A DNA stretch of 32,682 nt, taken from positions 1 through 32,682 of the forward strand of contig JAUXOG010000037.1 of assembly GCA_030682385.1 (NCBI GenBank). The letters run 5' to 3'. Under the pieces are notes generated by a model. The model worked only from the letters and a program-made list of their open reading frames with translations. It was not told the origin of the DNA and searched no databases. Positions 5,894 through 32,682 of this stretch are shown one piece after another; positions within the stretch are counted from its first letter, which is position 1, and each line of letters begins with the position of its first letter. Origin of the DNA: Bacteroidota bacterium. Lineage in GTDB: Bacteria > Bacteroidota > Ignavibacteria > UBA10030 > BY39. Both the position numbers and the translations under genes were made by a program.

Positions 5894-5920
5894 ATACCAT
5901 ACTTTCTACTAAACATCTAA

Positions 5921-5938: not shown

Positions 5939-5978
5939 GCTCCTGTTTTCAGCATTGCAGCACCCAGTCGATTAAGTT

Positions 5979-6474: not shown

Positions 6475-6742
6475 ACGGTCTTTGATACGCACAAACCGTT
6501 TCGCGCGTGATCTTAAAAAGGTTCCAGAGGGAGTTAAACACGAAGCTTATCGGAATGCAACATCAATTACACAGAATATATTTGCAGTCGAGCTCGATGT
6601 CCGTCCTCTTACTGGCTTGAAAGGGTATTATCGTGTTGTTGTTGCTAAGGAATATCGTATGATTTTTTCTTTTGATAATAAACATATTTACTTGCACCGA
6701 ATTGCACATCGAAAAGATATTTACCGAAATTTAGAATTATAA
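6458..6742 (+). CDS. RelE/ParE-family toxin
   Basis: Protein of 94 residues overlapping the antitoxin gene by 17 bp. Family features are NRFARDLKKVPEGVK near the N terminus (the F-x-x-x-x-K-K-L/V pattern), RPLTGLKGYYRVVV in the middle (the core L-x-G-x-x-x-x-R-V strand), and EYRMIFSFDNKHIYLHRIAH followed by RKDIYR at the C terminus. In the family this fold cleaves mRNA at the ribosome (RelE) or poisons gyrase (ParE); which applies here cannot be told. The frame is intact, unlike the toxins at 18.4 and 28.9 kb. TTG at 6479 is an alternative start. Confidence 0.82.
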   Translation: MILSPERSLIRTNRFARDLKKVPEGVKHEAYRNATSITQNIFAVELDVRPLTGLKGYYRVVVAKEYRMIFSFDNKHIYLHRIAHRKDIYRNLEL

Positions 6743-6835
6743 CAACTCGTCTCTCTCATTAATTTCAAAATCACCGGTTCGCAACGTTCTTCCTTCTCCG
6801 TTGCAAGCTACTTTTATTTCTGACAGAATAAATTC

Positions 6836-6908
6836 ATAAGACGTTAACGCATTATTTTACAATTCCGCCTTAGGCGGAATAGATTTTTTATTGAAATAGG
6901 CTTGCGGA
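6836..6908. repeat. Hairpin repeat R2 (73 bp)
   Basis: Second copy of R1. Here the central inverted repeat is perfect (ATTCCGCC TTA GGCGGAAT) and is followed by AGATTTTTTATTG, so on the plus strand it could itself act as a terminator for the toxin-antitoxin operon. It adjoins the bidirectional terminator at 6916. The remainder of 6743-6970 has no gene. Confidence 0.8.
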
Positions 6909-6915
6909 AAACAAG

Positions 6916-6950
6916 AAAAAGCCGATTCCTCAACAGAATCGGCTTTTTTT
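6916..6950. terminator. Bidirectional intrinsic terminator, copy B
   Basis: Same 13-bp stem, loop and T runs as the hairpin at 5859-5893. It can end the minus-strand M16 operon (stop at 6971) and the plus-strand toxin-antitoxin operon (stop at 6742). Confidence 0.88.
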
Positions 6951-6970
6951 ACACAATACTTTCTACTTAA

Positions 6971-14042: not shown

Positions 14043-17000
14043 TTACTCTAACTTCTCTTTCTCTAACGCTTCAAAATATTTCCTGATTAAATCTTCGTAA
14101 TCTTTGGAATACTTTTCTTCCAGGATTTTTAACAGTTCTTCTCTGAGTTTATTTTTTCCTTCTTGTGTAGTTAAATCAATATCTCTCGGACTTATCCGTT
14201 TATAATCTTTGCCAACTTCAGCACGGCGGCGTTTTTCGTAATCACGCTCGCGCATCGACTTTTGTGAATCGAGTAACCGCGATAATATCCGATCTTGCTT
14301 CTTTTGTGTTTCCGGATTAACGTTCCCTTGTTCCAAATCTGTTTGAACTTCCGACATATCTTTTGCAACTTTTTCTAAGTCGCCTAAAAGTTTACTCAAC
14401 TCGCCCATATTTTTCGCTTCATTAGCGAGTTGTTCTAACGATTTTTGTACGGCGCCCTGCTGACCGCCTAAGCGTCTGTACTCAGCCATTTGCTGTTGCG
14501 ATAAACCCTGCCCCTGCCCCCCCTGCCCCATAGCTTGTCCTGTCTGTGCATTGATTCCGGCTTGCATTCCGGACATTTGACCGAGCCGCTGCATCAAACC
14601 AGCCATGCCCATTCCTTGTCCGCCCCCTTGCTTCATTGCATTTATTGCGCCCTGCATCATCATTGCGGCGCGGTTCATCGAAGCCATTGCTTCGCCTTGC
14701 TGCTGCGAAGTTCCGAACGGATTCCGCTGTTCCATACTTTGCATTGCTTGCCCCATTTGCCTCATCGCATTTCCAATTTCTTTTCCCATCTCCGGACTTA
14801 TAGAAAACGACTTCTTGGAAATTTCGCCCATCGAGTTTGCTACGTTGTTCAAATCGCCTAACATATCCATTTGCTGTTGTGCGTTCTCGCGGAATCGCTG
14901 CGAGTTCGGGTCGAGATTTTTAGTTTCCTGTTTCAGTTCTTCCTGATTTTTCGAGATTTCTAACAGGTTTTGAACTGCCTTACGCATTTTATTTAAAACT
15001 TCTTTTTGCATCTGTTCTTGAAGCGATTTCTGAACGTCTTTCATCTGCGTCATAAAGTCCTGCATATCTTCAGTCATCTCTTGCTGTGTTTGACTTGCCG
15101 GCTTCATTTGTCCCGACATCATTTGCTGAGATGCTTTGTTCGATTTTTTCTGAAGCTGTTTTTCGCCTAAACTTTTTTCGGCTTGCGACATTTTATCTAG
15201 AGGCATATCTTCCGGAAACTCTTCCATTTTCTCCTTTAAATTTTTCGCCTCCTGCTGAAGCTTGTCGATTTTTTCCTGTATATCTTTCTGTTGCTTGGCT
15301 AAATTTTCTAACTTCTCTTTATCGTCGGAATTTGTTTTCGATGTCTGTTCCTTCAACTGCTGTTGCTGGTCAATCAACTCTTCGGTGCGTTTTATAAGCT
15401 CATCAATTTTTTGTTCGATGTGGATGCGTTTTAAAAGTTCAAGTGTCCGTTCTAAATTTTTCTTGAACTGCTCTTCCGAAAAATTCATCTGCTGCATTTC
15501 CTGTTTCATCTGTTCGGGGGTCATTTGCTGCATTTTTTCCTGCAGCTTTTTCATCGCCTCTTGAAGTTCAGGATTCTTCAGTTCTTCCATCAACTTTTGA
15601 AGTTCCAAATACTTCTCCATAGTTTGCTGCGAGACAAGTTTGTTCTCATCCATTTTCTCTATCATCTCTTCCATCTTCTGTGCAGCTTCCGAGATTTTCT
15701 TTTTCATATCCTCATATTTTTTAGTCAGCTCCTCTGTTTTTTTTTGCTGCTGCCAGTCAGCTTTTTGCTGATTCTTTTTCAGATCGCGCTGAAGCTCGTC
15801 GAACTCTTTCTTCAATTTTTCAGCTTCTTTTGTTACGTTTTGCATCGTTTCGATAGTCTGCTTATGGCTTTCCGAAACATCGGCAAAAACTTCATCGAGA
15901 GATGGAAGTCGAACCAAGTAAGTTTCACTTCGCGATGCTTTCGGTCCACTCACATTATCGTTATCAAAAACTTCAACATAATAAGCGATAACATCTTCGG
16001 GAACAAGTTGAAGTCCTGCTAAATTCCAGTTGTGCCAAAACTCCTGTGCGATTTGTTCTTTTGACGTTAGAGGAATTTCGATAAAAGAAAATTCTTCTGA
16101 CGGTCTCTCGTAGCGCGATTGAACGAGACGATATGCAAGTTGCAATTTTGAAAAACCATAGTCGTCTTTGATTTTGATTAGTAAATTGAGCAGCATGCTT
16201 TCGGTAACATCAACATTTTTAGCAGGCACAGCTATAGCAACAGTTGGATATTCGTCGGGAATAATTTTTAACTGATAATTGATCGGAGCGATATTCGTTA
16301 AGCCCTTTTCATCTTTTAGATTTATAGTGTAAGATTTATCTTTTGAAAAAGTAATTGACCCTCTTGCTTCTTTTTCGTTTATAGAAAGTTTAGTAATTGT
16401 GCTGTCGCTAAAATGCAGTCCTGCCGACGACAAGCTTTTACTCGATAAAATATTGAAATTAATTTTCGTCCCCGGTAATGCAGTAACATCGCCGACATTT
16501 TCTTCGAGTGCTTTAGGTGGGATGCGAGTGTAAGCCGGGTAAGTTAAATTCAACTGCAGCACGCGGATTATAGGTCGGTCGAGAACTAAAATTTTATATA
16601 CAGGACTGCGTGAATCCCCGGAAGATACATAATAATGAGTTGTAGATTTTATGTTTGGAATTGAGAACTTAAAAATTCCTGCGTCCGAAATTTTAAGCGT
16701 TGTTGTTTCATACTTTGTTACCCCCTCCTCGCGCGCTTGAAAAGTAATTGTATTGACAGAACTTCCAACAGGATGAATGGTGAAATCGACCGTTTCACCG
16801 CGAAGCGCTTCCGAATCTCCCGGTTCAACTATGAAAAATAGTTTGGGAATAACTGAAAACTGTTGGTTAAATTGGTAGATACGGAAAGCCGACGATAAAA
16901 ATCCTTTCGGTGAAATAATAATAGTCAACAGAAAAACACCTAATGCGTATAAAAAAAACTTTCTTATTTTTTTAAATCGTTTATAATCAACAGCTTGAAT

Positions 17001-17459
17001 AAAATCAATGCTTTTGATGGCATTGTATAAATCCATAAACGAAGCGTCGATAAGATCGATTGAGTATAAAATTTGTTCCTGCACTTTCGATTCATAAACT
17101 TGCAAAGCATTCAGCAGGCGGTCGCGGATGTGTGGAAATTGACTGCCGACTTTGATTGCAATTTCCGAATCGTTCGCGTTTTTTAATAGTTTGATTTTTC
17201 TGAGAAGCAGTCTGCCGGAAAACCACGCTGTTGCAGAAAGAGTAGATAAAAGTATGAAGAAGAAAAGTATCGTTCTTCCTGTTATTCCGAAACCGAAGAT
17301 GCGGTCTAATACAATTGAGAATAAAAATGCAAGAAGGAAAATGGAAGCTGATATTATGATACCTGCAATGAGGTCAATAGAATTTTGCTTCCGTCTGACG
17401 GTGTGAAGTCGCTGTTTGATTTCTTGGTAAAGCGGCGATATGTTTTGTGAGTTTTGCAA
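14043..17459 (-). CDS. DUF4175-type membrane protein with long coiled-coil C terminus
   Basis: Protein of 1138 residues. Two membrane helices near 28-80, with a third near 167-183 (FFLYALGVFLLTIII), anchor it in the inner membrane. A region of about 190-530 looks like Ig-type beta domains (LVLDRPIIRVLQLNLTYPAY, YYVEVFDNDNVSGPKASR). From about 540 to the end it is Q/K/E/M-rich coiled coil, with a low-complexity Q/G/M stretch near 940-1020. This layout fits DUF4175 family proteins, usually found with DUF4159, DUF58 and MoxR genes; DUF4159 is present just upstream here. The start is a TTG 20 bp after the hicB stop with no clear ribosome-binding site, and no better in-frame start exists. The molecular function of the family is unknown; an envelope-stability or scaffold role is speculation. 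Confidence 0.8.
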   Translation of the reverse strand: MQNSQNISPLYQEIKQRLHTVRRKQNSIDLIAGIIISASIFLLAFLFSIVLDRIFGFGITGRTILFFFILLSTLSATAWFSGRLLLRKIKLLKNANDSEIAIKVGSQFPHIRDRLLNALQVYESKVQEQILYSIDLIDASFMDLYNAIKSIDFIQAVDYKRFKKIRKFFLYALGVFLLTIIISPKGFLSSAFRIYQFNQQFSVIPKLFFIVEPGDSEALRGETVDFTIHPVGSSVNTITFQAREEGVTKYETTTLKISDAGIFKFSIPNIKSTTHYYVSSGDSRSPVYKILVLDRPIIRVLQLNLTYPAYTRIPPKALEENVGDVTALPGTKINFNILSSKSLSSAGLHFSDSTITKLSINEKEARGSITFSKDKSYTINLKDEKGLTNIAPINYQLKIIPDEYPTVAIAVPAKNVDVTESMLLNLLIKIKDDYGFSKLQLAYRLVQSRYERPSEEFSFIEIPLTSKEQIAQEFWHNWNLAGLQLVPEDVIAYYVEVFDNDNVSGPKASRSETYLVRLPSLDEVFADVSESHKQTIETMQNVTKEAEKLKKEFDELQRDLKKNQQKADWQQQKKTEELTKKYEDMKKKISEAAQKMEEMIEKMDENKLVSQQTMEKYLELQKLMEELKNPELQEAMKKLQEKMQQMTPEQMKQEMQQMNFSEEQFKKNLERTLELLKRIHIEQKIDELIKRTEELIDQQQQLKEQTSKTNSDDKEKLENLAKQQKDIQEKIDKLQQEAKNLKEKMEEFPEDMPLDKMSQAEKSLGEKQLQKKSNKASQQMMSGQMKPASQTQQEMTEDMQDFMTQMKDVQKSLQEQMQKEVLNKMRKAVQNLLEISKNQEELKQETKNLDPNSQRFRENAQQQMDMLGDLNNVANSMGEISKKSFSISPEMGKEIGNAMRQMGQAMQSMEQRNPFGTSQQQGEAMASMNRAAMMMQGAINAMKQGGGQGMGMAGLMQRLGQMSGMQAGINAQTGQAMGQGGQGQGLSQQQMAEYRRLGGQQGAVQKSLEQLANEAKNMGELSKLLGDLEKVAKDMSEVQTDLEQGNVNPETQKKQDRILSRLLDSQKSMRERDYEKRRRAEVGKDYKRISPRDIDLTTQEGKNKLREELLKILEEKYSKDYEDLIRKYFEALEKEKLE

Positions 17460-17701: not shown

Positions 17702-18379
17702 CTAATGACTTAACGCCCACACAATTATGTTTGTTCCAAAACGAAGGGCTTCTTCTCGCTTATCGGGTGGAGTGTTGTGAACATCGGGATCGTTCCAGCC
17801 ATCGCTCGGATTCGATTCGTAAGTGTAGTATAGTACAAGTCGATTGTTATGAAAAATACCGAAACCCTGCGGCTGTTTGCCGTCGTGCTCGTGTGTCTTC
17901 GGCGGACCGTACGGAAAATTGTAGTGGCAGCTATACAAGCCGAATGAGTACGGCAGTTCAGTCAAATCTTTTTCAGGAAATACTTTTTTGATTTCGCGAC
18001 GAAATGCTTTATCTAATCCGTAGTCGTCATCGACATATAGGAAGCCGCCGTTTTCAAGATAAGTGCGTAACCGCTTTACTTCGTAATCGGAAAAAACTAC
18101 GTTGCCGTGTCCGGTCATAAATATGAATGGATAAGTAAAAAACTTGTCGCTGGAAATTTCCACAAACTCATAAACCGGTTCGGTATCAATCAAAGTATTT
18201 TGCTTAACAAATTTCAGCAGGTTTACATCTCCGCCCGGGTCGTTGTACCAGTCGCCGCCGCCGCTGAATTTAAGTCGTGCCATTTTGAATGCACTGGAAA
18301 CTTTAACTTGAGCAGAGAGATTAGAGCAGAGAGCGATGAGCAGCACCAGCGTGATTAATATTTTGAAAGTTCGTTTCAC
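17702..18379 (-). CDS. DUF4159 secreted protein
   Basis: Protein of 225 residues from GTG at 18379, where a signal peptide begins (VKRTFKILITLVLLIALCSN, cleavage near LSAQ). The body carries DUF4159 hallmarks: ARLKFSGGGDWYNDPGGDV, FMTGHGNVVFSDYEVKRLR, and YLENGGFLYVDDDYG. The family resembles a glutamine-amidotransferase-like flavodoxin fold and typically sits with DUF4175 and MoxR/DUF58 genes in Bacteroidota envelope operons, as here with DUF4175. The open frame extends upstream without a stop into a truncated RelE toxin (GTG at 18499), so a fusion product 40 residues longer is possible. The sequence around this GTG is repeated before the antitoxin at 18.7 kb. Confidence 0.78.
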   Translation of the reverse strand: MKRTFKILITLVLLIALCSNLSAQVKVSSAFKMARLKFSGGGDWYNDPGGDVNLLKFVKQNTLIDTEPVYEFVEISSDKFFTYPFIFMTGHGNVVFSDYEVKRLRTYLENGGFLYVDDDYGLDKAFRREIKKVFPEKDLTELPYSFGLYSCHYNFPYGPPKTHEHDGKQPQGFGIFHNNRLVLYYTYESNPSDGWNDPDVHNTPPDKREEALRFGTNIIVWALSH

Positions 18380-18395
18380 TAATTTGTAAAATTCA
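18369..18395. repeat. Short copy of the leader repeat at the DUF4159 start
   Basis: GTTCGTTTCACTAATT at 18369-18384 is identical to 18701-18716, and the following bases are related (TGTAAAATTCAGG against GAAATTTAGG). The two copies bracket the antitoxin and truncated toxin, as a target duplication around an inserted module would. Confidence 0.6.
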
Positions 18396-18499
18396 GGTTG
18401 TATAAATATGATGGGTTTATTTGTAAACATCTTTTGGATATCTAGTATCTCTAATTCTCGTCGAGCTGATTTTGTGACTGTAATACTGTATTTAAGCAC
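18380..18499 (-). pseudogene. Truncated RelE-like toxin, in frame with DUF4159
   Basis: GTG at 18499 overlaps the antitoxin stop by 8 bp, the normal coupling in RelBE-type pairs. The first residues (LKYSITVTKSARRELEILD) are the N terminus of a RelE/ParE toxin. After about 20 residues the similarity ends (QKMFTNKPIIFIQPEFYK) and the frame continues without a stop into the DUF4159 signal peptide. All catalytic and core strands of the toxin are missing, so no activity is expected. The piece could still act as a leader that couples DUF4159 translation to the antitoxin gene. Confidence 0.65.
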
Positions 18500-18683
18500 G
18501 TAATTTGCCTTTTTGGCGTAATTTTGATTTAACCTCTTCGAGGGATTCACGCGGCTCATCGGCACGAGTTCTTGCGATGAGGATATCGTAAAAATCTTCC
18601 CACAGTTCTTCGTGCTTTTTTAAATCGATAAGAACTCCGGTTTTATTTCCTTTTTTATCTACGATAAATTGTATTCCTGTCAT
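18492..18683 (-). CDS. Small type II antitoxin (Phd/YefM-like)
   Basis: Protein of 63 residues: MTGIQFIVDKKGNKTGVLID at the start, then an acidic/basic helical tail (DEPRESLEEVKSKLRQKGK). The opening 'QFIVDxKGNKTxVLI' is typical of antitoxins that pair with RelE/ParE toxins. The toxin gene immediately downstream is truncated, so this antitoxin has no intact partner here. AAAAGG lies about 8 bases before the ATG. Its leader and first six codons are duplicated almost perfectly at 28646-28705. Confidence 0.75.
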   Translation of the reverse strand: MTGIQFIVDKKGNKTGVLIDLKKHEELWEDFYDILIARTRADEPRESLEEVKSKLRQKGKLRA

Positions 18684-18726
18684 TTGTTATTCCTTTTAAT
18701 GTTCGTTTCACTAATTGAAATTTAGG
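18667..18726. repeat. 60-bp direct repeat, left copy
   Basis: Covers the first five or six codons of the antitoxin, its ribosome-binding site and the leader as far as TTTAGG. It matches 28646-28705 in the same orientation at 59 of 60 positions (one C/T difference at 18711). The two copies enclose the defence and repair genes. Confidence 0.9.
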
Positions 18727-18748
18727 AAAATGAAGGGGGATTAGCAAA

Positions 18749-21172
18749 TTAATCCAATTGCAAAATATTTCCTCCCAATAATTCCGCATGTTCCGGATTG
18801 CAGGTAAATATTATTGTCTGCTTGTTCATAGCAAAGTTAAAAATTATCTCAGCAGCTTTTTTCTGACGCTGTGGATCAAGATCTACCAGCGGGTCGTCCA
18901 TCACAAGAAATCCATCAGAACTGCCAAGAAAATACTTTGCAATCGCTAACCGAATTGCCAAACCAAGTACATCCATCGTTCCACCAGAAAGAAACTCAAC
19001 TGGGAGTATTTTACCGTCTTTACGAACAAATCCTTTCGGCAAACTGCCATCCATTTCTATATCACTATAACGGTCGCCAGTCATCACTGCCACATATTTT
19101 CCAATATCATTTTCTAATCCCTCGTAAGTGCCGATATCTAGCAGCTCAACGGATTTTTCAGTAACTTCTTTTAATCTTGCTATAGCTTTACCTCTTCGAA
19201 GTTGTGAACAAAAAACCTCATCAGCTAAAATAAAATCTTTATAAAGTTCTTCCACCGACTGCTCTGGCAAATTTTCTTCAATCCTTGCTTTTTCAATTGC
19301 TAGATTATTTTTTTTCTCACGCACTTCCTCAAGTTTTCCTTTTGTCTCCTCGAATTCACGTATGAAAGCATCAAAATCCGATACTCCTTCAGGCAAAGGC
19401 AGAAGCTGTTCGATCTTTTCGTTGATTTCGTTTTCTTTACCAAATGCTTTGGCAAGTTTCGTCAGCAATTCATCTTTTGTCTTGTATTTCTTTTCATAGG
19501 CACCAACAAATTCTTCTGATTTAATCAGCTCATTCTTTTTTGAATCAATATCTCGTTTAGTGTCGTTGAATTCGACTGCGACTGTGGCAAGATCACGTGC
19601 GGGTTTCAGGTTTTTAATGAATTCGATTTTCTTCTCAAGATTTTCAAGTGTATCGCTGCCTAATTCAGATTTTAGATTCTTTTCTGCATTCTTCACTGCA
19701 TTAAGCTCCTGTTCATATTCTTCATTAATGGCTACAGCTTCGTTCACGGTTCTAATATCAAATTGTTCAAGAATCTTCTTCAAATTCTGGGCAGATGCTT
19801 GAAGTTCTTTTTCTAATTTTTCGAAATCTCCCTCACCAGATGTTAACTCTAATATCCAATCCGAATGTTCAAGTTTTATTCTTCCACCTGCTTCAAATTC
19901 TTTTGCTTCAGCTTCTGAAATGCTGAATGATTCTTTAGGTTTGAAGTCGAGTTGAACTTTTAGCTGATTCTCACGCTTTGCAGTGAACTTTGCTTTTAGC
20001 TTACCGGCTCTAATGCTATTGAGCAGTTTTTCGTAAAACTGATTTGCATCTCTTATTTTCTTTAAATCTTCACGATCGAGTTTTTTTGTTTTATTCAACT
20101 CTGCTTGTGCCTTTTCTAATTCAGTTTGGAGCCGTTTTCCTCTTTCAACATTTTCAATTAACGGTTTATTTGCCTCCATCAGTTCTGCTCGTTCTTTTTC
20201 TTCTTTTAACTCTTTGAATTTTTCCTCCAAAGCTGGAAGCTGAGACTTTATTTCCTTTGATTTACTTTCTACAACGGGCCAATTTTCGTTTACATTTTTC
20301 AATTCATCAATATCTTTTTTCAGAGAGTTTAATTCTGCCTGCAGCGTTCTGCGTTCATGTGCATCATTTACTGCAGAAGAGTTTTTATTGATATATTCAC
20401 TCATCCTTCCAATCGCTTCATCAAAATCCCTGATTTCTTTATTCAGTTTATCATACTTTTCTTCCAACATTTCAGCATTTTTATGTTCCGTCCGTGTTTT
20501 TTCTTTGAGATAATACGCTTTTACGATACTTCCAAAATTCTTTTTCCACGGGTTTTCAATTCCACGCCCGCCCTCTGGTTGATTTCTCTGTGAATCCCAA
20601 CGCCGAAATTGATCATCATACAACTGGTTTACTTGCTCTTTGAATTTGTCAACAGAAACTCCGTCGGTGTTTAGCAAAGCAGCTCTGAGAAGGTCGCCTA
20701 AATTCTGCAAAGTTTCGGGATATTCATCTTTGAGTTCTTGTAAAGTTTGCTGCAATCCCGATTGGTATGTCATCAAAATCGATTTAAATGCTGCCTCCGA
20801 AGCAGGAAGAATTTCATTAAGTTTCTGTTCGATTGCATCATCGTCGTTCAATGTGCTGCCCGTTGGTAGAATCAATTCGACAGATTCTCTTGCGCCCCAG
20901 CTTTTCCGAAATGTGTATTGTTCGCCGTTGTGCGAAAATTGAATTTCAGCTGATGCGGTGTCGCCATCAATCGGTATGCACGGTGAGATTTCTTTTTCAA
21001 AATCCCTCCTGTGAAGCTGTGTTTTTGTGAATAGAACTTTCTGGATCGCACGGAAGATTGTAGATTTTCCAGCTTCGTTCGGACCAACAATAACGTTCAA
21101 GCCGTCTGTAAAAGTTAGTTCCGCATTAGCAATACCTGCAAACGGATTAAGTTTGATTCTTGTAATAATCAT
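18749..21172 (-). CDS. SbcC/Rad50-like (YhaN-type) ATPase
   Basis: SMC-like ATPase of 807 residues. Walker A is GPNEAGKST at 30-38, followed by long coiled coil (about 170-680). The C-terminal head has the ABC signature FLSGGTMDVLGLA (727-739), Walker B GFLVMDDPLVDLDPQ (754-768) and a final IIFTCNPEHAELLGG. No CxxC zinc hook is seen in the coiled coil; this and the length suit the YhaN group better than classical SbcC or Rad50. It overlaps the nuclease gene by 4 bp (ATGA), with GAGGTAAGG as ribosome-binding site. Together they should form a DNA-end-processing nuclease complex in the cytoplasm. The H-loop position reads TCNPEH rather than a histidine directly after TC, a variation worth checking. 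Confidence 0.88.
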   Translation of the reverse strand: MIITRIKLNPFAGIANAELTFTDGLNVIVGPNEAGKSTIFRAIQKVLFTKTQLHRRDFEKEISPCIPIDGDTASAEIQFSHNGEQYTFRKSWGARESVELILPTGSTLNDDDAIEQKLNEILPASEAAFKSILMTYQSGLQQTLQELKDEYPETLQNLGDLLRAALLNTDGVSVDKFKEQVNQLYDDQFRRWDSQRNQPEGGRGIENPWKKNFGSIVKAYYLKEKTRTEHKNAEMLEEKYDKLNKEIRDFDEAIGRMSEYINKNSSAVNDAHERRTLQAELNSLKKDIDELKNVNENWPVVESKSKEIKSQLPALEEKFKELKEEKERAELMEANKPLIENVERGKRLQTELEKAQAELNKTKKLDREDLKKIRDANQFYEKLLNSIRAGKLKAKFTAKRENQLKVQLDFKPKESFSISEAEAKEFEAGGRIKLEHSDWILELTSGEGDFEKLEKELQASAQNLKKILEQFDIRTVNEAVAINEEYEQELNAVKNAEKNLKSELGSDTLENLEKKIEFIKNLKPARDLATVAVEFNDTKRDIDSKKNELIKSEEFVGAYEKKYKTKDELLTKLAKAFGKENEINEKIEQLLPLPEGVSDFDAFIREFEETKGKLEEVREKKNNLAIEKARIEENLPEQSVEELYKDFILADEVFCSQLRRGKAIARLKEVTEKSVELLDIGTYEGLENDIGKYVAVMTGDRYSDIEMDGSLPKGFVRKDGKILPVEFLSGGTMDVLGLAIRLAIAKYFLGSSDGFLVMDDPLVDLDPQRQKKAAEIIFNFAMNKQTIIFTCNPEHAELLGGNILQLD

Positions 21173-22290
21173 TTCCTTACCTCCTGAATTAAATTGTATG
21201 CTAATTGGAGTGTTTCATAATCGTCTGCGTTTTCCGAAAGATGATAAAGTAACTTGTGCGGGAATGAGCCTTCGGTAAATTCCTTATTAATTGTTTCAAT
21301 TGTGATTTCCTGTCTCAGCTCATCGGTGTTATATTCGACATACAAAAGCTTTGTTTTTAACCCTTCTAAAATTTCAAAAAGGGTTGAGAAATCCTTTTTA
21401 GGAATTCGACCAGTAAGTTTAAGTTTTAATAAATTTTTAGAATTTATTTCTGGTGAATACTTATTGACCAACGCTTGCGCATCTTCCGATGAAGTGAGTT
21501 TAATTTTCTCTTGGATAAACCGGTGGTTTCCAGTTACAACAGATGATGCAGAAATTTTCTTTTCCTCATCGAGCGTGATAACCCAAACCTTACCTTCGTG
21601 CTGGCAGTCGAAGCCGTTTGGTTCAGGTGTGCCGGGGTAAAAGATTCGATCAAATGAACTTGATTTGGGTGGATACTGGATGCGGTCGGTGTGTCCCATC
21701 AACCAGATGTCAAGTCCGCAGTTCAGCAGCTCATCTTTTGTCATTGGATAAAATCTTTTATCTGGATCTGGAGAAACATCCTGTAAACTGCCGTGTGCAA
21801 TGCCGATGTGATATTTTACAGCAGATTCTTTTGATATATTTTTAATCCAGCCAACATTGTTAGTGCTTGAATGTTTTGATTGACACGGAGCTGAATACAG
21901 ATTCATATCAAGATCGTAATGGTTGAGCTGATAAACTTTACATTCTTCGAGCAGAAGCACACGATCGCCCTTTTGGGATTTGAACTTTTGCCAGAGTCTT
22001 GAATCGTTTGGGATAATGAAATCGTGATTACCCGGCAGAATAACGGCTAATTTTCCTTGAAACTCGTTAATTATTTGTGCTGTGCGGACGATATCTCGTT
22101 CTGACACACGCTGGTGGTCGAAAAGGTCGCCTGCAACAACGAACAAATCGCATTTTTGCTCGTTTGCCAACTCAACGATATTTTTAAGCGTGTTAAACCG
22201 AGCTTCACTGAGTTCCTGCTGAACCTCAGGGTAATTAGAAAATTTTAAGCCGAGATGAACATCGGCTGTGAGAAGGAGTTTAAGACACAT
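21169..22290 (-). CDS. SbcD/Mre11-like (YhaO-type) metallophosphoesterase nuclease
   Basis: Protein of 373 residues with all core calcineurin-like motifs: TADVHLG (D10, H12), VVAGDLFD (D55), LPGNHDF (N88, H89, D90), IAHGSL (H166) and LMGHTDRI (H200). These bind two metal ions in Mre11/SbcD nucleases. The C-terminal part is helical and would bind the ATPase encoded next. The downstream ATPase gene overlaps its stop. The pair degrades or trims DNA ends and hairpins in known relatives, and its place beside a restriction system and RloC-like gene suggests a repair or defence role here. GGAATT before the ATG is a weak ribosome-binding site. Confidence 0.9.
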   Translation of the reverse strand: MCLKLLLTADVHLGLKFSNYPEVQQELSEARFNTLKNIVELANEQKCDLFVVAGDLFDHQRVSERDIVRTAQIINEFQGKLAVILPGNHDFIIPNDSRLWQKFKSQKGDRVLLLEECKVYQLNHYDLDMNLYSAPCQSKHSSTNNVGWIKNISKESAVKYHIGIAHGSLQDVSPDPDKRFYPMTKDELLNCGLDIWLMGHTDRIQYPPKSSSFDRIFYPGTPEPNGFDCQHEGKVWVITLDEEKKISASSVVTGNHRFIQEKIKLTSSEDAQALVNKYSPEINSKNLLKLKLTGRIPKKDFSTLFEILEGLKTKLLYVEYNTDELRQEITIETINKEFTEGSFPHKLLYHLSENADDYETLQLAYNLIQEVRK

Positions 22291-22358
22291 ATTTTAATTC
22301 CAAAATTTTTTTAAACATAATTTTTAGTAGCTGATGATGCATTTAAATAAAATGCCGC

Positions 22359-22425
22359 TGTCATTCCGCCCTGAGTCCCGCCTTCAGCGGGATAAACTCC
22401 GCCGAAGGGTCGGAGGTGTGGATGA
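22359..22425. repeat. G/C-rich palindromic intergenic element
   Basis: A G/C-rich island in A/T-rich DNA containing two hairpins: TCCCGC-CTTCA-GCGGGA (22376-22392) and CTCCG...CGGAG (22397-22415). It begins CTGTCATTCCGCC; GTCAT also starts the element at the right edge of the window. It lies between the RloC-like gene and the SbcD-like gene and could reduce read-through. The gap 22291-22486 has no gene. Confidence 0.65.
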
Positions 22426-22486
22426 AAATCAACATCTACCAATTGTCCCTATCGATAAAATCAAAAAATATAACCTAACCGAGAAC

Positions 22487-24769
22487 TTACACACCGTGGA
22501 ATATTTTCAGTGCTCTCTTAACATACGACTGCAGTTCAGCATCATTAATTGGCTCTGTATCAGCTCGAGTATTTTCGGTGTGGTGATATTTCTTTGCATA
22601 ATCATTAATCTCCTCAATTTCTGAAAGCATAAGTTGCAACGAGTACAAGTTCTCGCGTGATGAAGCATGTCGTATTTTGTCTAGCATCTGACCAAACATC
22701 ACTGATGACTTGAATTCACGTGGAAATCTCTGACGCAAATTACCTTCAAGAAGTGGTCTGATACTGCGAGCAACCTCTCTCAAATCTCCAGTAGGTCCGT
22801 TTTCCAAATATTCAGCCAATAAAAAATAATTCTTTACGTAATCACTTCGAGTCTCCTCTTCAGGGTCCCACTCGGTCATGATACTGTCTCGCCCACTCCT
22901 TTTTATTTGGATCGTCATAAGGTCTGTACTAACCTTATTATGAATTCCAAAAAGAAAGTGCGGGTCATGAGACAACACTATGACCTGTTTTGCTTTCTGA
23001 CCCGCTCTTATAATCTGTTGTTGAGTGCATGATTTACGATAGCCATCCAAGCTGGAAATTGGGTCATCAAAAATTACTACTTTATTAGAAAGCTCAGTAT
23101 CTTGATCGAGTTTAGCAAGAAAGAAGGCAAATGCAAGTGTACTCTTATCACCAGAACTTAGTGTATTTTTGAAACTTGGGAGGTTCTCTTCTGTTTTCGA
23201 GTCCCCGAGTTCCACAGAAGTGTTATTGATCGATATTCTATAAATTGAACTCGGTTTTCCACCCATGTAGCTCGTTTTAGTTTCGACAATCTTGAATTCT
23301 GCTCCAAACTTATCAAGATATTGGTTTATGTCTTTTTCATACTGATCAAATATTTTCTTGTCGTATGCATCAAGAGTTTTTCTTGTCATTGTTTTTTCAT
23401 CTTCTAAACGCTTTTTCAAATTTACTGTCCGCTCATACTCATTGCACACTTTTACTAGGTTTGTTTGATGCCGTGCACGAGTGTTATTCAATTTTGCTAA
23501 TTCAGATTCAGCCAAAGCAAGATTTCCTTTCGCTGTTGCCTTTTTCTTTTCATTTATGAGTACATTCATATCATCAACTGCTCGGTTATAAGTACCCACT
23601 TTTTCTACTAAATTCCTATAAGCATCTATCTTCTTCTGCAGATCGGGATCAAGATTAATTTCTTCCATAGGAGAAGTAGCTTTCCTGCCTAAATGAGCCA
23701 ACAGAGATTCGGAAACATCGTCCAGAACTCTCTGTACATCTGAGAATTCTATTTTAGGATATGAGCCAGGAACGTATTGACTCCAGAATTCCGCCAATGC
23801 CATGTTACCCTGGATGCTTTGTTGGATTGTAAGAATCTGATTCTTTGAAAACGATGCCCTGACTGAATCAATATCTGAGTCGATTTCCGACTTCAACAAT
23901 CTGTATGCATCACCAAAATAGCCCCGATATGCCTCAACAAGTGCAATACTCTTAAGAGATTGGTTGCAAAATGGACAGGATTCGTTTTTAATATAGGGAA
24001 TGCCATCTCTCAACCACGATTCACCGTTTTCGTCCATACAACTTGCAATGTGTGCTTTGACCATTTCCATAGCTTCAATTGAAACACTTTCAACGGTTCT
24101 TTGCAGAGTGTTTCTGATATTGTCAAGCTGTATTGTGGGTAAGATAATCTTACTTAATAGGCTTTTCGCCGCAATTTCAGAACTCTTTTTAAGTGATTTA
24201 ATCTCATTCTCTTTTGTGGTAATTTGATCCTCTATATTTGAAATAATAGGTAAAGATAGAAAATCTTTGACCGAGATTTCCTGAACCATGTATTTCTTTA
24301 TCTCTTTTTCCTTTTCACCAATCTCCTTGTTCTTTTCTCTTATTTGATGATCTAGATCGTCAATCTTTGTTGCCAACTTCATACCTTCTTCACCGACAAC
24401 GAACCGATATAACCCCCTTTTATTATCAGATTCTACATAATCTCCTGAATAGACATTGTTGCTTATGAAAATAGGATCAAAGATTTCAATATTAGGGAAG
24501 ACATTATCCCATTTACTGTTTTTAAAGGTTGCATTGGTTGATTCCAGCCGTACGGCAACTTCAGGATTTCCATTTCCAGCTAAAGTTGTCCTGCAAACAA
24601 TGTACTTATTTTCGCCAGTACGCAATGATCTGAGAACGGCACAGAGTGTTGTTTTACCTCTACCATTCTCAGAATAGATGAGTGTGAATTTTTTAAACTC
24701 AACATTGCCTGCTGCAGAATAATCCACAAATCTTCCAATGTTTTTAATACTGATAATCTTTTTAATCAT
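22487..24769 (-). CDS. RloC/PrrC-like ATPase, candidate anticodon nuclease
   Basis: Protein of 760 residues of the AAA_13 type. Walker A-like YSENGRGKTT (32-41), coiled coil about 130-200, a CPFC pair (C265, C268) like the zinc hook of RloC, more coiled coil 380-480, ABC signature LSSGDKSTLAFAF (537-549), Walker B VVIFDDPISSLD (564-575), and H-loop VLSHD (H601). The C-terminal domain has R681-x3-E685 (RFPRE) and H729/H730 (KKYHH), which could correspond to the R-x3-E...H triad of PrrC/RloC anticodon nucleases. Such proteins cleave tRNA when DNA damage or a phage anti-restriction factor is sensed, and are often linked to restriction-modification genes, as here. Length fits RloC (longer than PrrC). 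The nuclease assignment is inferred from pattern; it could be another AAA_13 ATPase. Confidence 0.72.
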   Translation of the reverse strand: MIKKIISIKNIGRFVDYSAAGNVEFKKFTLIYSENGRGKTTLCAVLRSLRTGENKYIVCRTTLAGNGNPEVAVRLESTNATFKNSKWDNVFPNIEIFDPIFISNNVYSGDYVESDNKRGLYRFVVGEEGMKLATKIDDLDHQIREKNKEIGEKEKEIKKYMVQEISVKDFLSLPIISNIEDQITTKENEIKSLKKSSEIAAKSLLSKIILPTIQLDNIRNTLQRTVESVSIEAMEMVKAHIASCMDENGESWLRDGIPYIKNESCPFCNQSLKSIALVEAYRGYFGDAYRLLKSEIDSDIDSVRASFSKNQILTIQQSIQGNMALAEFWSQYVPGSYPKIEFSDVQRVLDDVSESLLAHLGRKATSPMEEINLDPDLQKKIDAYRNLVEKVGTYNRAVDDMNVLINEKKKATAKGNLALAESELAKLNNTRARHQTNLVKVCNEYERTVNLKKRLEDEKTMTRKTLDAYDKKIFDQYEKDINQYLDKFGAEFKIVETKTSYMGGKPSSIYRISINNTSVELGDSKTEENLPSFKNTLSSGDKSTLAFAFFLAKLDQDTELSNKVVIFDDPISSLDGYRKSCTQQQIIRAGQKAKQVIVLSHDPHFLFGIHNKVSTDLMTIQIKRSGRDSIMTEWDPEEETRSDYVKNYFLLAEYLENGPTGDLREVARSIRPLLEGNLRQRFPREFKSSVMFGQMLDKIRHASSRENLYSLQLMLSEIEEINDYAKKYHHTENTRADTEPINDAELQSYVKRALKIFHGV

Positions 24770-24834
24770 GTGTGATACCCAATTGTTTTTGACTTAATTT
24801 TGTAAATATTGCTATTAAAACCCCAATATCGCTG

Positions 24835-24859
24835 TCACTCCATCTCCAATCCCAATTGC
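24835..24859. repeat. 25-bp direct repeat, left copy
   Basis: TCACTCCATCTCCAATCCCA plus AATTGC; 22 of 25 positions match 26401-26425. On the minus strand both copies encode QLGLEME-stop in one frame. They bracket the two-gene unit at 24998-26304. Confidence 0.6.
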
Positions 24860-24981
24860 CCTTTGCTCGTTTTCCTGTGTGTTGAGCTGCTTTGAATGTA
24901 GTATTCACCGCCGCCGAGTTTGGATTTGGCTTTCAACTCACGGAGATGTTGGAGTTTATCAGAGTGTTGGGATTCGGACAT
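24835..24981 (-). pseudogene. Small ORF, possible remnant of a carboxyltransferase gene start
   Basis: A 48-codon frame from ATG at 24981. Residues 8-26 read DKLQHLRELKAKSKLGGGE, which resembles the N terminus of biotin-dependent acyl-CoA carboxyltransferase beta subunits, where an LGGGE-x-x-I motif follows a helical start. The family sequence is not continued; the frame ends in QLGLEME. No ribosome-binding site is seen. It is more likely a gene fragment than a working gene. It fills most of the 228-bp gap between the RloC-like gene and the membrane-anchored gene. Confidence 0.35.
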
Positions 24982-24997
24982 ACGAAAGAGGTATGAA

Positions 24998-26062
24998 CTA
25001 TATTTTTTTTGAACTTATGAAAAGTTCCTTTTTCTTGCTTCTCAAGACTGCCAAATAATGCAGTCTTTCAATAGAATGATCGGTATATCGAAGAACTTTT
25101 TGAAATTTTCTTTCGCATAGTACGTCGAATGATTCTAATACCTCTTCACAAATTTGCTTAATTTTTTCTTCGTTGTCAGCCAAACCAAGAACATATAAAG
25201 TTTCTATGTTGGAAGAAGCTATTCCCTTTTTAATGAAATTCACATAAGGATCGATCGAGACAATTAACTTGCTAGGCTTCCCCACAATAACTAAACCAAA
25301 GCGACAATACTCTTTAACAAAATCAAGTGGCATAGAAGTATCGCCAATTTTACGTTGAGCAAGTTTTTCGAGGTAATTTATCAGAGAATCAACTTCTGTG
25401 TGAATTGTCGAATCTTGTCTATTGCCAAACATCTTTTGACCTAAAAAGTGTAGTTCTTGTAGATATACTGGGAAAAAATATCCACCCTTTTGCATAACCG
25501 AGTACTTATCAAAGTACTTTCCAATTTTTGAGTCCTTTGGCGTGACAGACTTGTGAAGATATTCCTCTAGAAAAACATCAACAATTTGAGGTTTCTCTTC
25601 TTCAATAAGTTTCATTGAAACGAAAAGATCGGTTGCTTCAGCTTGTGATGGAGAAAGGTATCTTTTTACTTTATATAGCAAAGAAGTTGATACAAAAAGA
25701 CATGCAGCACGAACAAAATTTTGATCGTTACTATCTTGACGACGTAATCTAACAATAACATTATTTCCTTCAAGAAAGCTCTGCTTATTAATTTTAGCAT
25801 CTACCCACTCTACTCTGACTCCTTTCGCTTCTAATCCAGGCATATCTTTAGTACGCCTTTTGAGATAGCTATTAACGCTCGACTGAAGATCATGTTTGAC
25901 GTACTGCTTATGAGCAACTTTTACAAGTACACCAATCTTATCCGAAAGTTTCCATAGCAATGCTACCCATTTTTCGAACTTTTCTGGATTAAGGAATAGA
26001 AGTAAAATAATTGCGCCAAGTATCGTCGCTCCACCTAAAAGCCAACCAATAATCAAATTCAT
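24998..26062 (-). CDS. Membrane-anchored protein of unknown function
   Basis: Protein of 354 residues. One N-terminal membrane helix (LIIGWLLGGATILGAIILLL, residues 3-22) is followed by a soluble mixed alpha/beta region of over 300 residues with no family motif I recognise. Charged helical stretches include QYVKHDLQSSVNSYLKRRT near 54 and a basic C terminus (SKKKELFISSKKI). Without a cleavable signal it should face the cytoplasm. Its ATG overlaps the stop of the zinc-ribbon gene (ATGA) and GGAGGAGAT serves as ribosome-binding site, so the two are made together. It lies between restriction-modification genes and an RloC-like ATPase, which suggests a defence function, but only by association. 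Confidence 0.7.
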   Translation of the reverse strand: MNLIIGWLLGGATILGAIILLLFLNPEKFEKWVALLWKLSDKIGVLVKVAHKQYVKHDLQSSVNSYLKRRTKDMPGLEAKGVRVEWVDAKINKQSFLEGNNVIVRLRRQDSNDQNFVRAACLFVSTSLLYKVKRYLSPSQAEATDLFVSMKLIEEEKPQIVDVFLEEYLHKSVTPKDSKIGKYFDKYSVMQKGGYFFPVYLQELHFLGQKMFGNRQDSTIHTEVDSLINYLEKLAQRKIGDTSMPLDFVKEYCRFGLVIVGKPSKLIVSIDPYVNFIKKGIASSNIETLYVLGLADNEEKIKQICEEVLESFDVLCERKFQKVLRYTDHSIERLHYLAVLRSKKKELFISSKKI

Positions 26063-26304
26063 TTTTTAATCTCCTCCCTTGCACTGAGATACACTAAAAG
26101 TTGATTAACACAACTAGCCTTATCACAAACTAACTTTACCGAGCCACTTTCAGGATATATTGCGTGAAGATTCTCCCAAGTGACTACGTCTCCACAAAAC
26201 TTGCACTTGATTGCCCTCCGTTTGAAATCTCCAAGAATACCAACACTTTGAAGTAATTCTTCTAAATCATCGTCATGAACTGCGTGCAATGCTTGCTTTT
26301 CCAT
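26059..26304 (-). CDS. Small zinc-ribbon protein of unknown function
   Basis: Protein of 81 residues with two cysteine pairs, C35-x2-C38 (KCKFCGD) and C60-x4-C65 (CDKASC), the spacing of a small zinc ribbon. The N terminus is acidic (HAVHDDDLEELLQSVGI). A GAGAGGATAAT ribosome-binding site precedes the ATG. The gene overlaps the membrane-anchored gene by 4 bp, so the products likely work as a pair; the zinc ribbon might bind nucleic acid or the partner. Family not recognised. The 125-bp gap upstream (26305-26429) is A/T-rich and may hold its own promoter. Confidence 0.7.
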   Translation of the reverse strand: MEKQALHAVHDDDLEELLQSVGILGDFKRRAIKCKFCGDVVTWENLHAIYPESGSVKLVCDKASCVNQLLVYLSAREEIKK

Positions 26305-26400
26305 ATTATCCTCTCATTAAAATCTATTTAATTAAAGCGATATAAATTCTATCACCCTTATTTATTGCATTTTACTTATTATTTCCACCCACTACTAACT

Positions 26401-26425
26401 TCATTCCATCTCCAACCCCAACTGC
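26401..26425. repeat. 25-bp direct repeat, right copy
   Basis: Matches 24835-24859 at 22 of 25 positions in the same orientation. It lies directly after the methyltransferase stop. In another frame that runs through the methyltransferase end it encodes KREERMNAQLGLEME followed by a stop, which hints that the methyltransferase C terminus may once have read on. Confidence 0.6.
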
Positions 26426-26429
26426 GCAT

Positions 26430-27854
26430 TCATCCTCTCTTCCCGCTTCGTCTTTTAGCTTTCTTGCTTATCGCTCTCTTTTTCTTGGATTTAGTTTTTT
26501 CTTTCTTCGATTGAGTACGGTAAACAGATTGTTTTTCCGCTACAACACCTGCACGTCGTCTTCGACGCATAACCACGATGTACTCTCGCGTCATTGTTTC
26601 ATCGTTAATACCGACAACATTTGTTGGACTGTTCCGAAGCGGCATACGTTTGTTAGGAATAACTCTATTGTGAGTATCGATATGTTCGTATCCTAACGAC
26701 GAAAAAAAATTAATAATAGCGACATCTGTTGGAAGAACTATTCCTTTCACTTTTCGATTACCAACAACGTAGCAAGCAAATCCACCCGGCTTAATAACCT
26801 GCGCAACGTTTGTTATTGACTTATATAAGTCTTGATAGAAGGAGGCTACTTCATTCGCACGTTTTTGATCTTTTTGCGCAATCAACTCTATCGTTTCAGT
26901 TAGTTGCTCGCTGGGGAGGCGTGGTATCTTCTTTTGTATTTTTCCGCCCATCAGTTTTCTATCGACACCTTCCGGCTCTTCGAGTCCGAGCCAAGCTGCA
27001 GAAAGGCGAGAATATTGTCCATACGCAACTGTCGTGTGCGAATCACCATATGGTGGAGATGTTACAACGATATCGACACTATTCTTTCTTATGTATTCCT
27101 CTGGTATTCCCTCAACAGTATTGAAACCGTATATTTTTGCAATCGGTACGCTTTCGGTGGATTTGAATTGACTCATCAAACTGACAAATCTCTCCAGACC
27201 AAGCCGATTTCTCTTTAGCTTCGATGACATTATATAGAAGACGTTCGGATTGAAAAGTTTCAACTTTTCAGGTTGATACCTGTATAGTTTGAACTCGTCA
27301 TTTCTCGTGTTTGATGACTCACGAACAGTTTCGCTAAAAGCGATTTTAAAGAAGAGACATACATTATCGTCTTCCAATGTTTCGATAAAAATCTTCAGGC
27401 GTAGTAGTTTCTCAATAACTTGGGGCTTGAACCAAAACTCAATTCTTGAGATACCTGGAATGAGGGGTGGTTTTTCTAAATTGATTGCTTGCGAACGCAA
27501 AACGAAATCATTAAAATGCCGGATACTATTATCCAAAGCAAAAAAACTAGGCATAGAAGTTTTCGCTTGTGAAATCATCCTTGCCAGTGGATTAATATCT
27601 GTGCCGATGACATCAATGCCACGAATTACACCTTCAACAAGCGATGTTCCAGTTCCGCAATAAGGATCAAAAAGCAGTTTAGCATTACGCCCATATAAAT
27701 CAATCAATTTTTCTGCAATTTGCGGTATCATCCGTGCAGGATAGTCGTGGTAACAATGTGTCAATTCCCGAGTTGAAGCACCGTTAAATGTCCATTCATT
27801 TATCGCAGGATTAAATAGCTCTTCAAGAATGCTTAATTGGAGGGATTTCTTCAC
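26430..27854 (-). CDS. DNA methyltransferase, probably N4-cytosine, partner of the MvaI-like enzyme
   Basis: Protein of 474 residues. Motifs in order: X-like HDYPARMIPQIAEKLI (36-51), motif I DPYCGTGTS (63-71, the S-adenosylmethionine pocket), motif II GTDINPLA (84-91), motif IV TSPPYGDS (265-272, catalytic) and GGFACYVVGNRKV later. The S-P-P-Y form is usual in N4-cytosine enzymes, and known MvaI/BcnI-type systems use N4-methylcytosine partners. The region between motifs II and IV (about 100-260) may hold target recognition. The C-terminal tail is strongly basic (KKEKTKSKKKRAISKKAKRR). The start is GTG overlapping the endonuclease stop (GTGA), with GGAG upstream. It should protect host sites from the endonuclease. 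Confidence 0.88.
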   Translation of the reverse strand: MKKSLQLSILEELFNPAINEWTFNGASTRELTHCYHDYPARMIPQIAEKLIDLYGRNAKLLFDPYCGTGTSLVEGVIRGIDVIGTDINPLARMISQAKTSMPSFFALDNSIRHFNDFVLRSQAINLEKPPLIPGISRIEFWFKPQVIEKLLRLKIFIETLEDDNVCLFFKIAFSETVRESSNTRNDEFKLYRYQPEKLKLFNPNVFYIMSSKLKRNRLGLERFVSLMSQFKSTESVPIAKIYGFNTVEGIPEEYIRKNSVDIVVTSPPYGDSHTTVAYGQYSRLSAAWLGLEEPEGVDRKLMGGKIQKKIPRLPSEQLTETIELIAQKDQKRANEVASFYQDLYKSITNVAQVIKPGGFACYVVGNRKVKGIVLPTDVAIINFFSSLGYEHIDTHNRVIPNKRMPLRNSPTNVVGINDETMTREYIVVMRRRRRAGVVAEKQSVYRTQSKKEKTKSKKKRAISKKAKRRSGKRG

Positions 27855-28618
27855 GTCAGCTCCGAAATATCATTGAATAACGAAGTAAGCTTGTCTTCAT
27901 GAGTTCTGAATCCTGTTCCATGATTTCTGGCTGACGTACCTTTATCGTGAAGTCTTAGATCGACAAGAATATTTCCGGCACTAATTTGATTATGAATTAT
28001 GTTCGGCGATGTCCCTGTCAGTAATTGCGCACGATCATATTTAAACCATTCAGCATCACCCCGCATTTCACTAAACGCGCTTACAAGCACAAGACCGGGA
28101 ATTTTTTTCGCAAATCTCTCCGCCAATACATCCAATTGCCACTCTGCAATGACTTCTCCCGAAACATGTCTCACGTCAATGGTCGATTTATCGATATGAA
28201 GAAATAAGCCCATACTATTTGGAGTGCGTGCCATTGTAAAATACATGCCCAATCTTCCGTTACTATCTCGCGTGCCATACTTCCTTATTGCTTGAAGCGG
28301 GTTTATTTTCCATGCTTGCCTGCTGAAAGATCCATCCCGCCTGCCAAAGAACTTATTCGGCGGGCAGGTCTGCAAGCAGGCTTTCCTATTGAAAGTAAAA
28401 AGCGTAATCATTGATGATGATCCAACATGGTGCGCTTTCAACTCTACTGTACCCAAATCAGGCAAGGCGATATTGTTCTCTTTCATTCCAAGATAGTATT
28501 CTAAAGTTTGCCCAACTCCCGTAGGTCCTTTTCTCTTCGATGCTATCCAGCCTTTCTCTCTAACTCGAGCAAACTTTTTCTTGAATGTCGCAATAGTCAA
28601 TTGTTTGTGTTTTGTCAT
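27851..28618 (-). CDS. MvaI/BcnI-family type II restriction endonuclease
   Basis: Protein of 255 residues from ATG at 28618 (MTKHKQLTIATFKKKF). Family motifs: TGVGQTLEYYLG (33-44) and PDLGTVELKAH (53-63) giving D54-x4-E59-x-K61, the PD-(D/E)xK catalytic set with the spacing of MvaI. Known relatives cut CCWGG or CCSGG as monomers; the site here is not determined. The methyltransferase gene overlaps its 3' end. Residues 81-101 are encoded by a G/C-rich inverted-repeat insertion (28313-28382) that keeps the frame, between FNRKA and AWKINP; activity may be unaffected or reduced. Longer in-frame starts exist at 28690 and 28762. The upstream DNA is a copy of an antitoxin leader. Confidence 0.85.
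   Translation of the reverse strand: MTKHKQLTIATFKKKFARVREKGWIASKRKGPTGVGQTLEYYLGMKENNIALPDLGTVELKAHHVGSSSMITLFTFNRKACLQTCPPNKFFGRRDGSFSRQAWKINPLQAIRKYGTRDSNGRLGMYFTMARTPNSMGLFLHIDKSTIDVRHVSGEVIAEWQLDVLAERFAKKIPGLVLVSAFSEMRGDAEWFKYDRAQLLTGTSPNIIHNQISAGNILVDLRLHDKGTSARNHGTGFRTHEDKLTSLFNDISELT
28313..28382. repeat. Palindromic element inserted in frame in the endonuclease gene
   Basis: About 66 bp of G/C-rich sequence (plus strand: GCTTGCCTGCTGAAAGATCC, CCCGCCTGCC, then GGCGGGCAGG and GCAAGCAGGC). The outer and inner arms are inverted relatives of one another. It adds 22 codons without a stop or frame change and appears flanked by a short AAGC/AGC duplication. Composition contrasts sharply with the gene around it. 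Confidence 0.65.
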
Positions 28619-28638
28619 TGCCTTACGAGTTCCGTTAC

Positions 28639-28662
28639 TTATCTTAATTGTATTCCTGTCAT
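28639..28662 (-). pseudogene. Relict antitoxin start (seven codons)
   Basis: ATG at 28662 reads M-T-G-I-Q-L-R-stop. The first five codons and the AAAAGG ribosome-binding site are identical to the antitoxin at 18683; the sequence departs after ACAATT. The stop lies 20 bases before the endonuclease ATG, so this mini-frame could couple translation to the endonuclease. Confidence 0.6.
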
Positions 28663-28705
28663 TTGTTATTCCTTTTAATGTTCGTTTCATTAATTGAAAT
28701 TTAGG
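28646..28705. repeat. 60-bp direct repeat, right copy
   Basis: Same sequence and orientation as 18667-18726 with one difference (T at 28690). The change converts the GTG of the leader copy at 18379/18711 into ATG, creating an extra in-frame start for the endonuclease (28690). Confidence 0.9.
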
Positions 28706-28771
28706 GAAATAGGAGTGGAGATGCAAATGTTTTTTAAATTGTATAAATGTGTAACCGGACATTGAAGCCGT

Positions 28772-29124
28772 TTAAAAGATTTGTATTTGTTGATAAGTAA
28801 GTATAATTAATGATCTTTTCTGACCGAAAGCCATTTTTATTTCATCAAAATATTTTTCTACTCGAGATATAAGATAATCATTCGAAATATTCCCTAATTG
28901 AACGAATAAAACTTGTGGAGGCGAGCCATACAGTAAAGTGCGTTCAAAAAAGTCGGTATCTTTACTCACGATGACAAAATCATTCTCTTTCGCATATTCC
29001 ACAGCACGTCATCTGATAAATTCAAACCACCAGAGATATCAATCGTATGGAGGCAAGTTTCACCTTTCTTTTTGAACCACCCACACAATCGAGGTGGAAG
29101 TTGTGCATCAATTAACCACTTCAT
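28772..29124 (-). pseudogene. DUF5615 PIN-like toxin, frameshifted
   Basis: ATG at 29124 opens MKWLIDAQLPPRLCGWFKKK and continues to NLSDDV; the frame is then lost near 29003-29010, and the rest (VEYAKENDFVIVSKDTDFFE to the stop at 28772) continues in another frame. A single missing base explains it. The parts together give the full DUF5615 pattern, including the metal-binding D6 and the SKDTDF acidic motif of PIN-like RNases. The start overlaps the DUF433 stop (TGATG), the standard arrangement of this toxin-antitoxin type. Either the toxin is dead or there is a sequencing error in this base run. Confidence 0.8.
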
Positions 29125-29366
29125 CAAGCCGTAACCGTTGACGAGTCAATGGAGAAGGAGGATAAGCGTGCGGCGTAATTTAAACAAGCGAGAACATCTT
29201 CGTGTGTGAGGTATGGATAATCCTTGAGAATTTGCTGTTCACTCATACCGCCTGCAAGAAGTTCTAACACGTCGGTTACTCTGATACGCATACCTCGGAT
29301 TGTCGGTCTTCCTCCGCACAAACCGGGAACAATCGTAATGCGTGATAGCAAATTATTTGTATCCAT
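29124..29366 (-). CDS. DUF433 antitoxin
   Basis: Protein of 80 residues with the DUF433 pattern: ITIVPGLCGGRPTIRGMRI, VTDVLELLAGGMSEQQILKD, YPYLTHEDVLACLNYAA. The family has a winged-helix/HTH-like fold and is the usual antitoxin of DUF5615 PIN-like toxins, encoded just downstream. An AAAAGGTAA ribosome-binding site precedes the ATG. It likely represses its own operon and blocks the toxin; the toxin frame here is broken. Confidence 0.88.
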   Translation of the reverse strand: MDTNNLLSRITIVPGLCGGRPTIRGMRIRVTDVLELLAGGMSEQQILKDYPYLTHEDVLACLNYAARLSSFSIDSSTVTA

Positions 29367-32531: not shown

Positions 32532-32591
32532 AAAAGATCTCCTTTTATTGATTGATGGAATATGTTAATTAAGATCTGAAGTTACGCAGAA

Positions 32592-32682
32592 CAGTCATTC
32601 TTCATCCGCCAAAGGCGGATGAAGAATCTTAAACCTCAATTTTGAGCTGTTTTTAGATGTTTCGCTTCGCTCAACATGACAA
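32592..32682. repeat. MITE-like intergenic repeat at the right edge
   Basis: Begins CAGTCATTCTTC, carries a perfect 14-bp stem ATTCTTCATCCGCC / GGCGGATGAAGAAT with AAA loop (32597-32627), and ends TTTCGCTTCGCTCAACATGA followed by CAA. GTCAT at one end and ATGAC at the other form short inverted termini. The GTTGAGCGAAGCGAAACATC end is of a kind I know to be widely dispersed in bacterial genomes. Region 32532-32591 is the subtilase leader. Confidence 0.6.

Follow-up and report, generated by a model that had tools for sequence, protein, structure and literature searches.

A 10-kb block of acquired defence genes lies between 83-bp direct repeats in a 32,682-nucleotide stretch of Ignavibacteria DNA (contig JAUXOG010000037.1; hereafter the window), and it looks like the footprint of stepwise insertion rather than a self-moving element. 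The reading we favour, with a probability of roughly 0.6, is that the block was assembled stepwise, as a composite accessory island, in front of an operon that begins with a DUF4159 gene, and that the repeats are duplications of the target. The repeat copies and the genes of the block and its immediate flanks lie on the minus strand.

The sequence-only reading that drew attention to this locus reported 60-bp repeats in the same orientation with one mismatch (18667-18726 and 28646-28705), and these are real and correctly placed. The ungapped homology extends to 83 bp (copy 1, 18667-18749; copy 2, 28646-28728), over which the copies differ at 10 sites, nine of them within the last 23 bp, and are identical over at most 44 consecutive bp. 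At full length the pair is unique to this locus in the 3.38-Mb genome, the next best match being 30 bp (E 1e-4), and a near-exact 60-bp match across 10 kb cannot be due to chance. The ends of the block coincide with those of the repeats: the stop codon of its SbcC-like gene is at 18749, and its restriction endonuclease (REase) gene starts 28 bp from 28646. Copy 1 and the SbcC end form a small inverted repeat, GGATTA-ATTTGC-TAATCC, and within the last 23 bp copy 1 differs at seven clustered sites both from copy 2 and from the copy in G001, the only same-genus genome compared. An att site or IS end was ruled out, there being no recombinase and the repeat being unique in the genome; a search for the repeat ends elsewhere in the genome, or for an att site in a tRNA, found none, and the repeat motif was absent from the viral contigs searched. 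Other direct repeats, of 59-61 bp and about 0.9-1.1 kb apart, flank a small ORF at 5856-6971, and one family of these includes a terminator-like stem.

Both copies run, in minus-strand order, TTTG-N20-TAAATTTC, (A/G)TGAAACGAACATTAAAA, the ribosome site AGGAATAACAA and ATGACAGGAATACAATT; copy 1 holds a promoter-like stretch, a relic of a DUF4159 start, a ribosome site and the first codons of an antitoxin. In copy 1 the start sequence opens a whole, intact 63-codon gene for a RelB-like antitoxin (18492-18683), which has homologues in 15 of 60 relatives and a profile match below the Pfam cut-off. In copy 2 the same frame is cut off by a stop codon (MTGIQLR*), and the REase gene then starts at 28618. 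A partial copy, the third, aligns over about 36 columns (18362-18397) and carries the GTGAAACGAAC stretch; its alignment with copy 1 scores 39, a value reached by none of 1,000 shuffles. It reads GTG AAA CGA ACT TTC AAA and opens a signal-peptide-like stretch of DUF4159, and we infer that it is the start of this gene, the first of the host operon (17702-18379), with the GTG start at 18379. Each repeat copy probably comprises the promoter and start of the DUF4159 operon together with the first RelB-like antitoxin codons. A family-wide antitoxin leader as the origin of the repeat was ruled out, as paralogous antitoxins have unrelated leaders.

Two sequence comparisons indicate that the DUF4159 promoter most likely makes up the outer half of the repeat. 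First, in G002, a genome of the same family, the 120-bp gap between an S8 peptidase gene and DUF4159 carries TTTG-N20-TAAATTCTTATTA, and the alignment of this promoter-like stretch to the repeat was matched in 0, 13 and 15 of 1,000 shuffles for the G001 copy, copy 2 and copy 1, respectively. Second, the motif TTTG-N18-22-TAnnTT, which we take to resemble a Bacteroidota promoter, lies upstream of DUF4159 at 19 of 85 distinct loci, compared to 5.8 expected and a maximum of 10 in 200 shuffles. The same arrangement, TTTG-N20-TAAATTC, is present in G004, but there the alignment to the repeat is not significant by score. The repeat copies would be expected to act as promoters.

Next to copy 1, the block encodes an 807-residue SbcC/Rad50-like ATPase (18749-21172) with a P-loop, LSGG and LVMDDP and without a CXXC hook, and an SbcD/Mre11-like phosphoesterase (21169-22290) with DVH, GDLFD, GNHD and GHT motifs; by sequence, the two match Rad50 and Mre11. 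No Lamassu or Gabija call was made, as the matches of the SbcC-like protein to LmuB and GajA profiles rest mostly on the ATPase head. The next gene (22487-24769), absent from the viral contigs searched, is predicted to encode an RloC-like ATPase with putative tRNA cleavage. Like the anticodon nuclease RloC, which has a zinc-hook CXXC and a C-terminal R-x3-E-x36-52-H triad (PMC2610378), this ABC ATPase carries a zinc-hook (CPFC at 265, after a P-loop GRGKT at 36) and, as C-terminal candidates for the triad, R671, E675 and H729/H730; unlike RloC, its E-to-H spacing is 53-54 residues, one or two past the published range, and its best profile is PADLOC PDC-S06 (E 5e-88). Between this module and the next lies a short coding-like fragment (24770-24997, MSESQHSDKLQHLRELKAKSKLGGGE...) that may resemble the start of an acyl-CoA carboxylase; this assignment was not confirmed.

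A rare 354-residue protein with one N-terminal membrane helix (24998-26062) and an 81-residue zinc-ribbon protein (26059-26304), their genes overlapping, follow. The pair occurs in 3 of 391 genomes of the class and recurs as a pair, overlapping or adjacent, in two other genomes, G039 and G238; it is possibly an undescribed two-gene module. By eye, a class III cyclase-like ORF stands directly upstream of the pair in G039 (L262), and the pair in G238 (L263) has a long C-terminal extension that looks S1-like. The membrane protein was not found on the plasmids searched, and its AlphaFold model (mean pLDDT 54) was too poor for a fold search. The block had been described as holding only DNA-directed genes. 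The REase, methyltransferase, zinc-ribbon/membrane pair, RloC-like and SbcD/SbcC-like genes are all present, but the description goes too far: the target of RloC-type proteins is tRNA, and we know of no DNA role for the zinc-ribbon/membrane pair.

At the far end, an N6/N4 DNA methyltransferase gene (MTase; 26430-27854; DPYCGTG, SPPY) adjoins and overlaps the REase gene (27851-28618), whose start codon is supported by relatives. This overlap and the profile match (Pfam MvaI_BcnI, E 5e-33) are as in MvaI/BcnI systems, and by sequence the restriction-modification (R-M) pair belongs to this family, with putative cleavage at the family recognition site. Unlike those systems, the window REase has about 22 extra residues relative to its relatives in G040 and G024. 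They come from an in-frame palindromic insert of about 66 nt (28318-28388), which has one weakly similar counterpart in the rest of the genome and may affect REase activity. As had been noted before, no integrase or transposase is found among the window genes, and there is no tRNA in the window either.

The proteins of the R-M pair are 81-85% identical to those in G040 and G024, which belong to another family, whereas a neighbouring operon gene (14043-17459) is only 49-56% identical in the same genomes; this difference points to acquisition of the R-M pair by horizontal transfer. The homology stops at the REase start codon or shortly after it, the neighbours of the pair in those genomes are different, and no direct repeats bracketing the pair were found in other genomes. 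The SbcC-like, RloC-like and membrane-protein genes were unmatched in the same-genus genome and in the other family genomes searched, where the MTase had weak matches only; at the sequence level, the block genes are supported as accessory. The block modules were not found together in any one genome among the relatives searched, and the R-M pair is found alone elsewhere, which marks the block, as judged from its genes, as a composite of modules.

The site in front of the DUF4159 operon is variable. Across the class the downstream neighbours of DUF4159 are conserved and the upstream ones varied (a median of 50 vs 3 other loci sharing the neighbour), and among relatives the locus is empty, scarred, or occupied by defence genes or by others. 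In G002 it is empty: DUF4159 and the S8 peptidase gene are immediate neighbours, with one promoter and no antitoxin. In G004, 9.8 kb of unrelated genes stand in front of DUF4159, including, by sequence, a serpin and a two-component system. In G001 a single copy of the repeat is followed by the antitoxin and DUF4159. Upstream of this repeat are 30 of 30 nt of the window's SbcC 3' end, a relic of an N6 DNA methylase (its N-terminal part; best match E 9e-8, 61% identity) and an AriA-like ATPase; the SbcC-like and RloC-like genes are otherwise unmatched in G001, and the MTase has no close relative there. The block is partly erased in G001. The proposed check for an empty site had a mixed outcome: G002 has the S8 peptidase gene next to DUF4159 and one promoter, whereas the G001 site is scarred, not clean. 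None of the genomes compared had exactly the allele expected before insertion (DUF433/DUF5615, one repeat, antitoxin).

Because the SbcC end lies next to the single repeat in G001, the SbcC-repeat junction, common to the window and G001, is either ancestral to both or has been exchanged. The G001 copy departs from each of the window copies at 4-5 sites in the 60-bp part, where these two have a single difference between them. Given that the two copies are closer to each other than to G001 and yet the junction is shared, either the duplication is old and its copies were homogenised, or the block ends are of different age. The sequence-only reading had taken the near-identity of the repeats as a sign of a recent event, which is unproved, since with a shared junction repeat identity does not date the block. 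Nor is the block supported as one recent unit, given the SbcC end in G001 and the separate occurrence of the R-M pair.

The surroundings are also less ordinary than the envelope genes first described: decayed toxin-antitoxin modules come first (18398-18683 and 28772-29366), and envelope-type genes lie only farther out. On the DUF4159 side, the RelE-like toxin gene that accompanies the antitoxin is truncated (18398-18499), with about 20 first codons followed by unrelated sequence and no Pfam match; the truncation was judged by eye against the intact toxin of G006. Directly outside copy 2 lies a frameshifted DUF5615 toxin-like gene (28772-29126), paired with a DUF433 antitoxin-like gene (29124-29366), and the S8 peptidase gene (30714-32531) bounds the variable stretch. 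The window ends in a dispersed repeat (32560-32682) with more than 25 copies in G001, which may explain the contig end.

We infer the following order of events. In a first step, a RelBE-type module would have entered the DUF4159 start, duplicating about 30 bp (copies 1 and 3), with later loss of the toxin. Copies 1 and 3 enclose the antitoxin and just the first 20 or so toxin codons, and an insertion of this kind would leave exactly such an arrangement; the duplication belonging to this step would rest on the 36-column match. In a second step, entry of defence DNA at the promoter and antitoxin start would have produced copies 1 and 2 by a duplication of about 83 bp. The R-M genes would then have copy 2 upstream of them, and the antitoxin and host operon would retain a promoter in copy 1. 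The observed positions, copy 1 towards DUF4159 and copy 2 towards the S8 peptidase, are those that target duplication predicts. Modules could have been gained or lost at the same spot, as in G001, and an insertion of this type would need no recombinase inside the block. A crossover between the repeats could possibly excise the block, leaving one repeat and one promoter.

It is unlikely, in our view, that the block instead goes in and out as a unit by homologous recombination of the Campbell type, as a circle carrying one repeat and the defence genes. The same-orientation repeats bracket the block exactly, with a 44-bp exact run, and copies near-identical over 60 bp are what mutual exchange would give. 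However, the single-copy site in G001 keeps an SbcC relic, so loss there was no clean crossover; the R-M pair moves independently of the rest of the block, neither a circle nor a replication gene was observed, and 44 bp is short for efficient homologous recombination. More doubtful is an account in which two toxin-antitoxin starts, from a tandem or local duplication, already stood at the locus and the defence genes gathered between them later, with the repeats uninvolved in insertion. This would suit the composite block and the other decayed toxin-antitoxin genes adjoining the repeats, but the unrelated leaders of paralogous antitoxins mean that copy 2 came from the very same locus, and the coincidence of both block ends with repeat ends also speaks against it. 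Misassembly, previously named as the main alternative, is very improbable: the genome is a draft of 140 contigs and repeats are classic join points, but the separate G001 assembly has the same order of SbcC end, repeat, antitoxin and DUF4159, reproducing copy 1 with both flanks, and the window copies differ, with an exact match of just 44 bp.

Stepwise insertion with target duplication has a precedent. R-M genes in Helicobacter pylori insert with long target duplications (Nobusato et al. 2000, as outlined in PMC1643837 and PMC3031569), which are variable in length and "in the order of 100 bp" according to PMC3874152. As in H. pylori, where the direct repeats are of about 100 bp, the window has direct repeats of target sequence at both insert ends (the 83-bp copies, of which copy 1 occupies its original position before DUF4159 and is shared with G001), and the insert holds R-M genes and no recombinase. 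The relative with a single target copy is matched only in part, by G001 with its one repeat and its SbcC and methylase relics and by G002 with one promoter and no antitoxin. In contrast to the H. pylori pattern, several modules make up the 10-kb insert, whose target is the promoter of an operon; the closest relative has a scarred site in place of a clean empty one, and a smaller second duplication is nested at the same spot. The type of event is already known; its neat feature here is a copy of the likely promoter before both cargo and host operon. One could go further and propose, though we consider it improbable, that the insertion site itself duplicates the promoter: defence DNA would repeatedly enter at one operon start and copy the promoter on every occasion, giving one to the cargo, leaving one to the host and keeping the block cleanly excisable without a recombinase of its own.

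Defence islands are variable hotspots at conserved operon boundaries. The locus resembles one in that R-M, RloC-like, AriA-like and methylase genes turn over at a shared position across related genomes; it differs in that the G004 site is filled with non-defence genes and that repeats bound the site in one genome only. How integrase-less defence genes enter and leave chromosomes is only partly understood, and this locus offers several states of one site in related genomes. That the invaded operon keeps a promoter suggests why an insertion with a long duplication would be tolerated, and the pattern of long target duplications associated with R-M genes would extend to a group far from Helicobacter.
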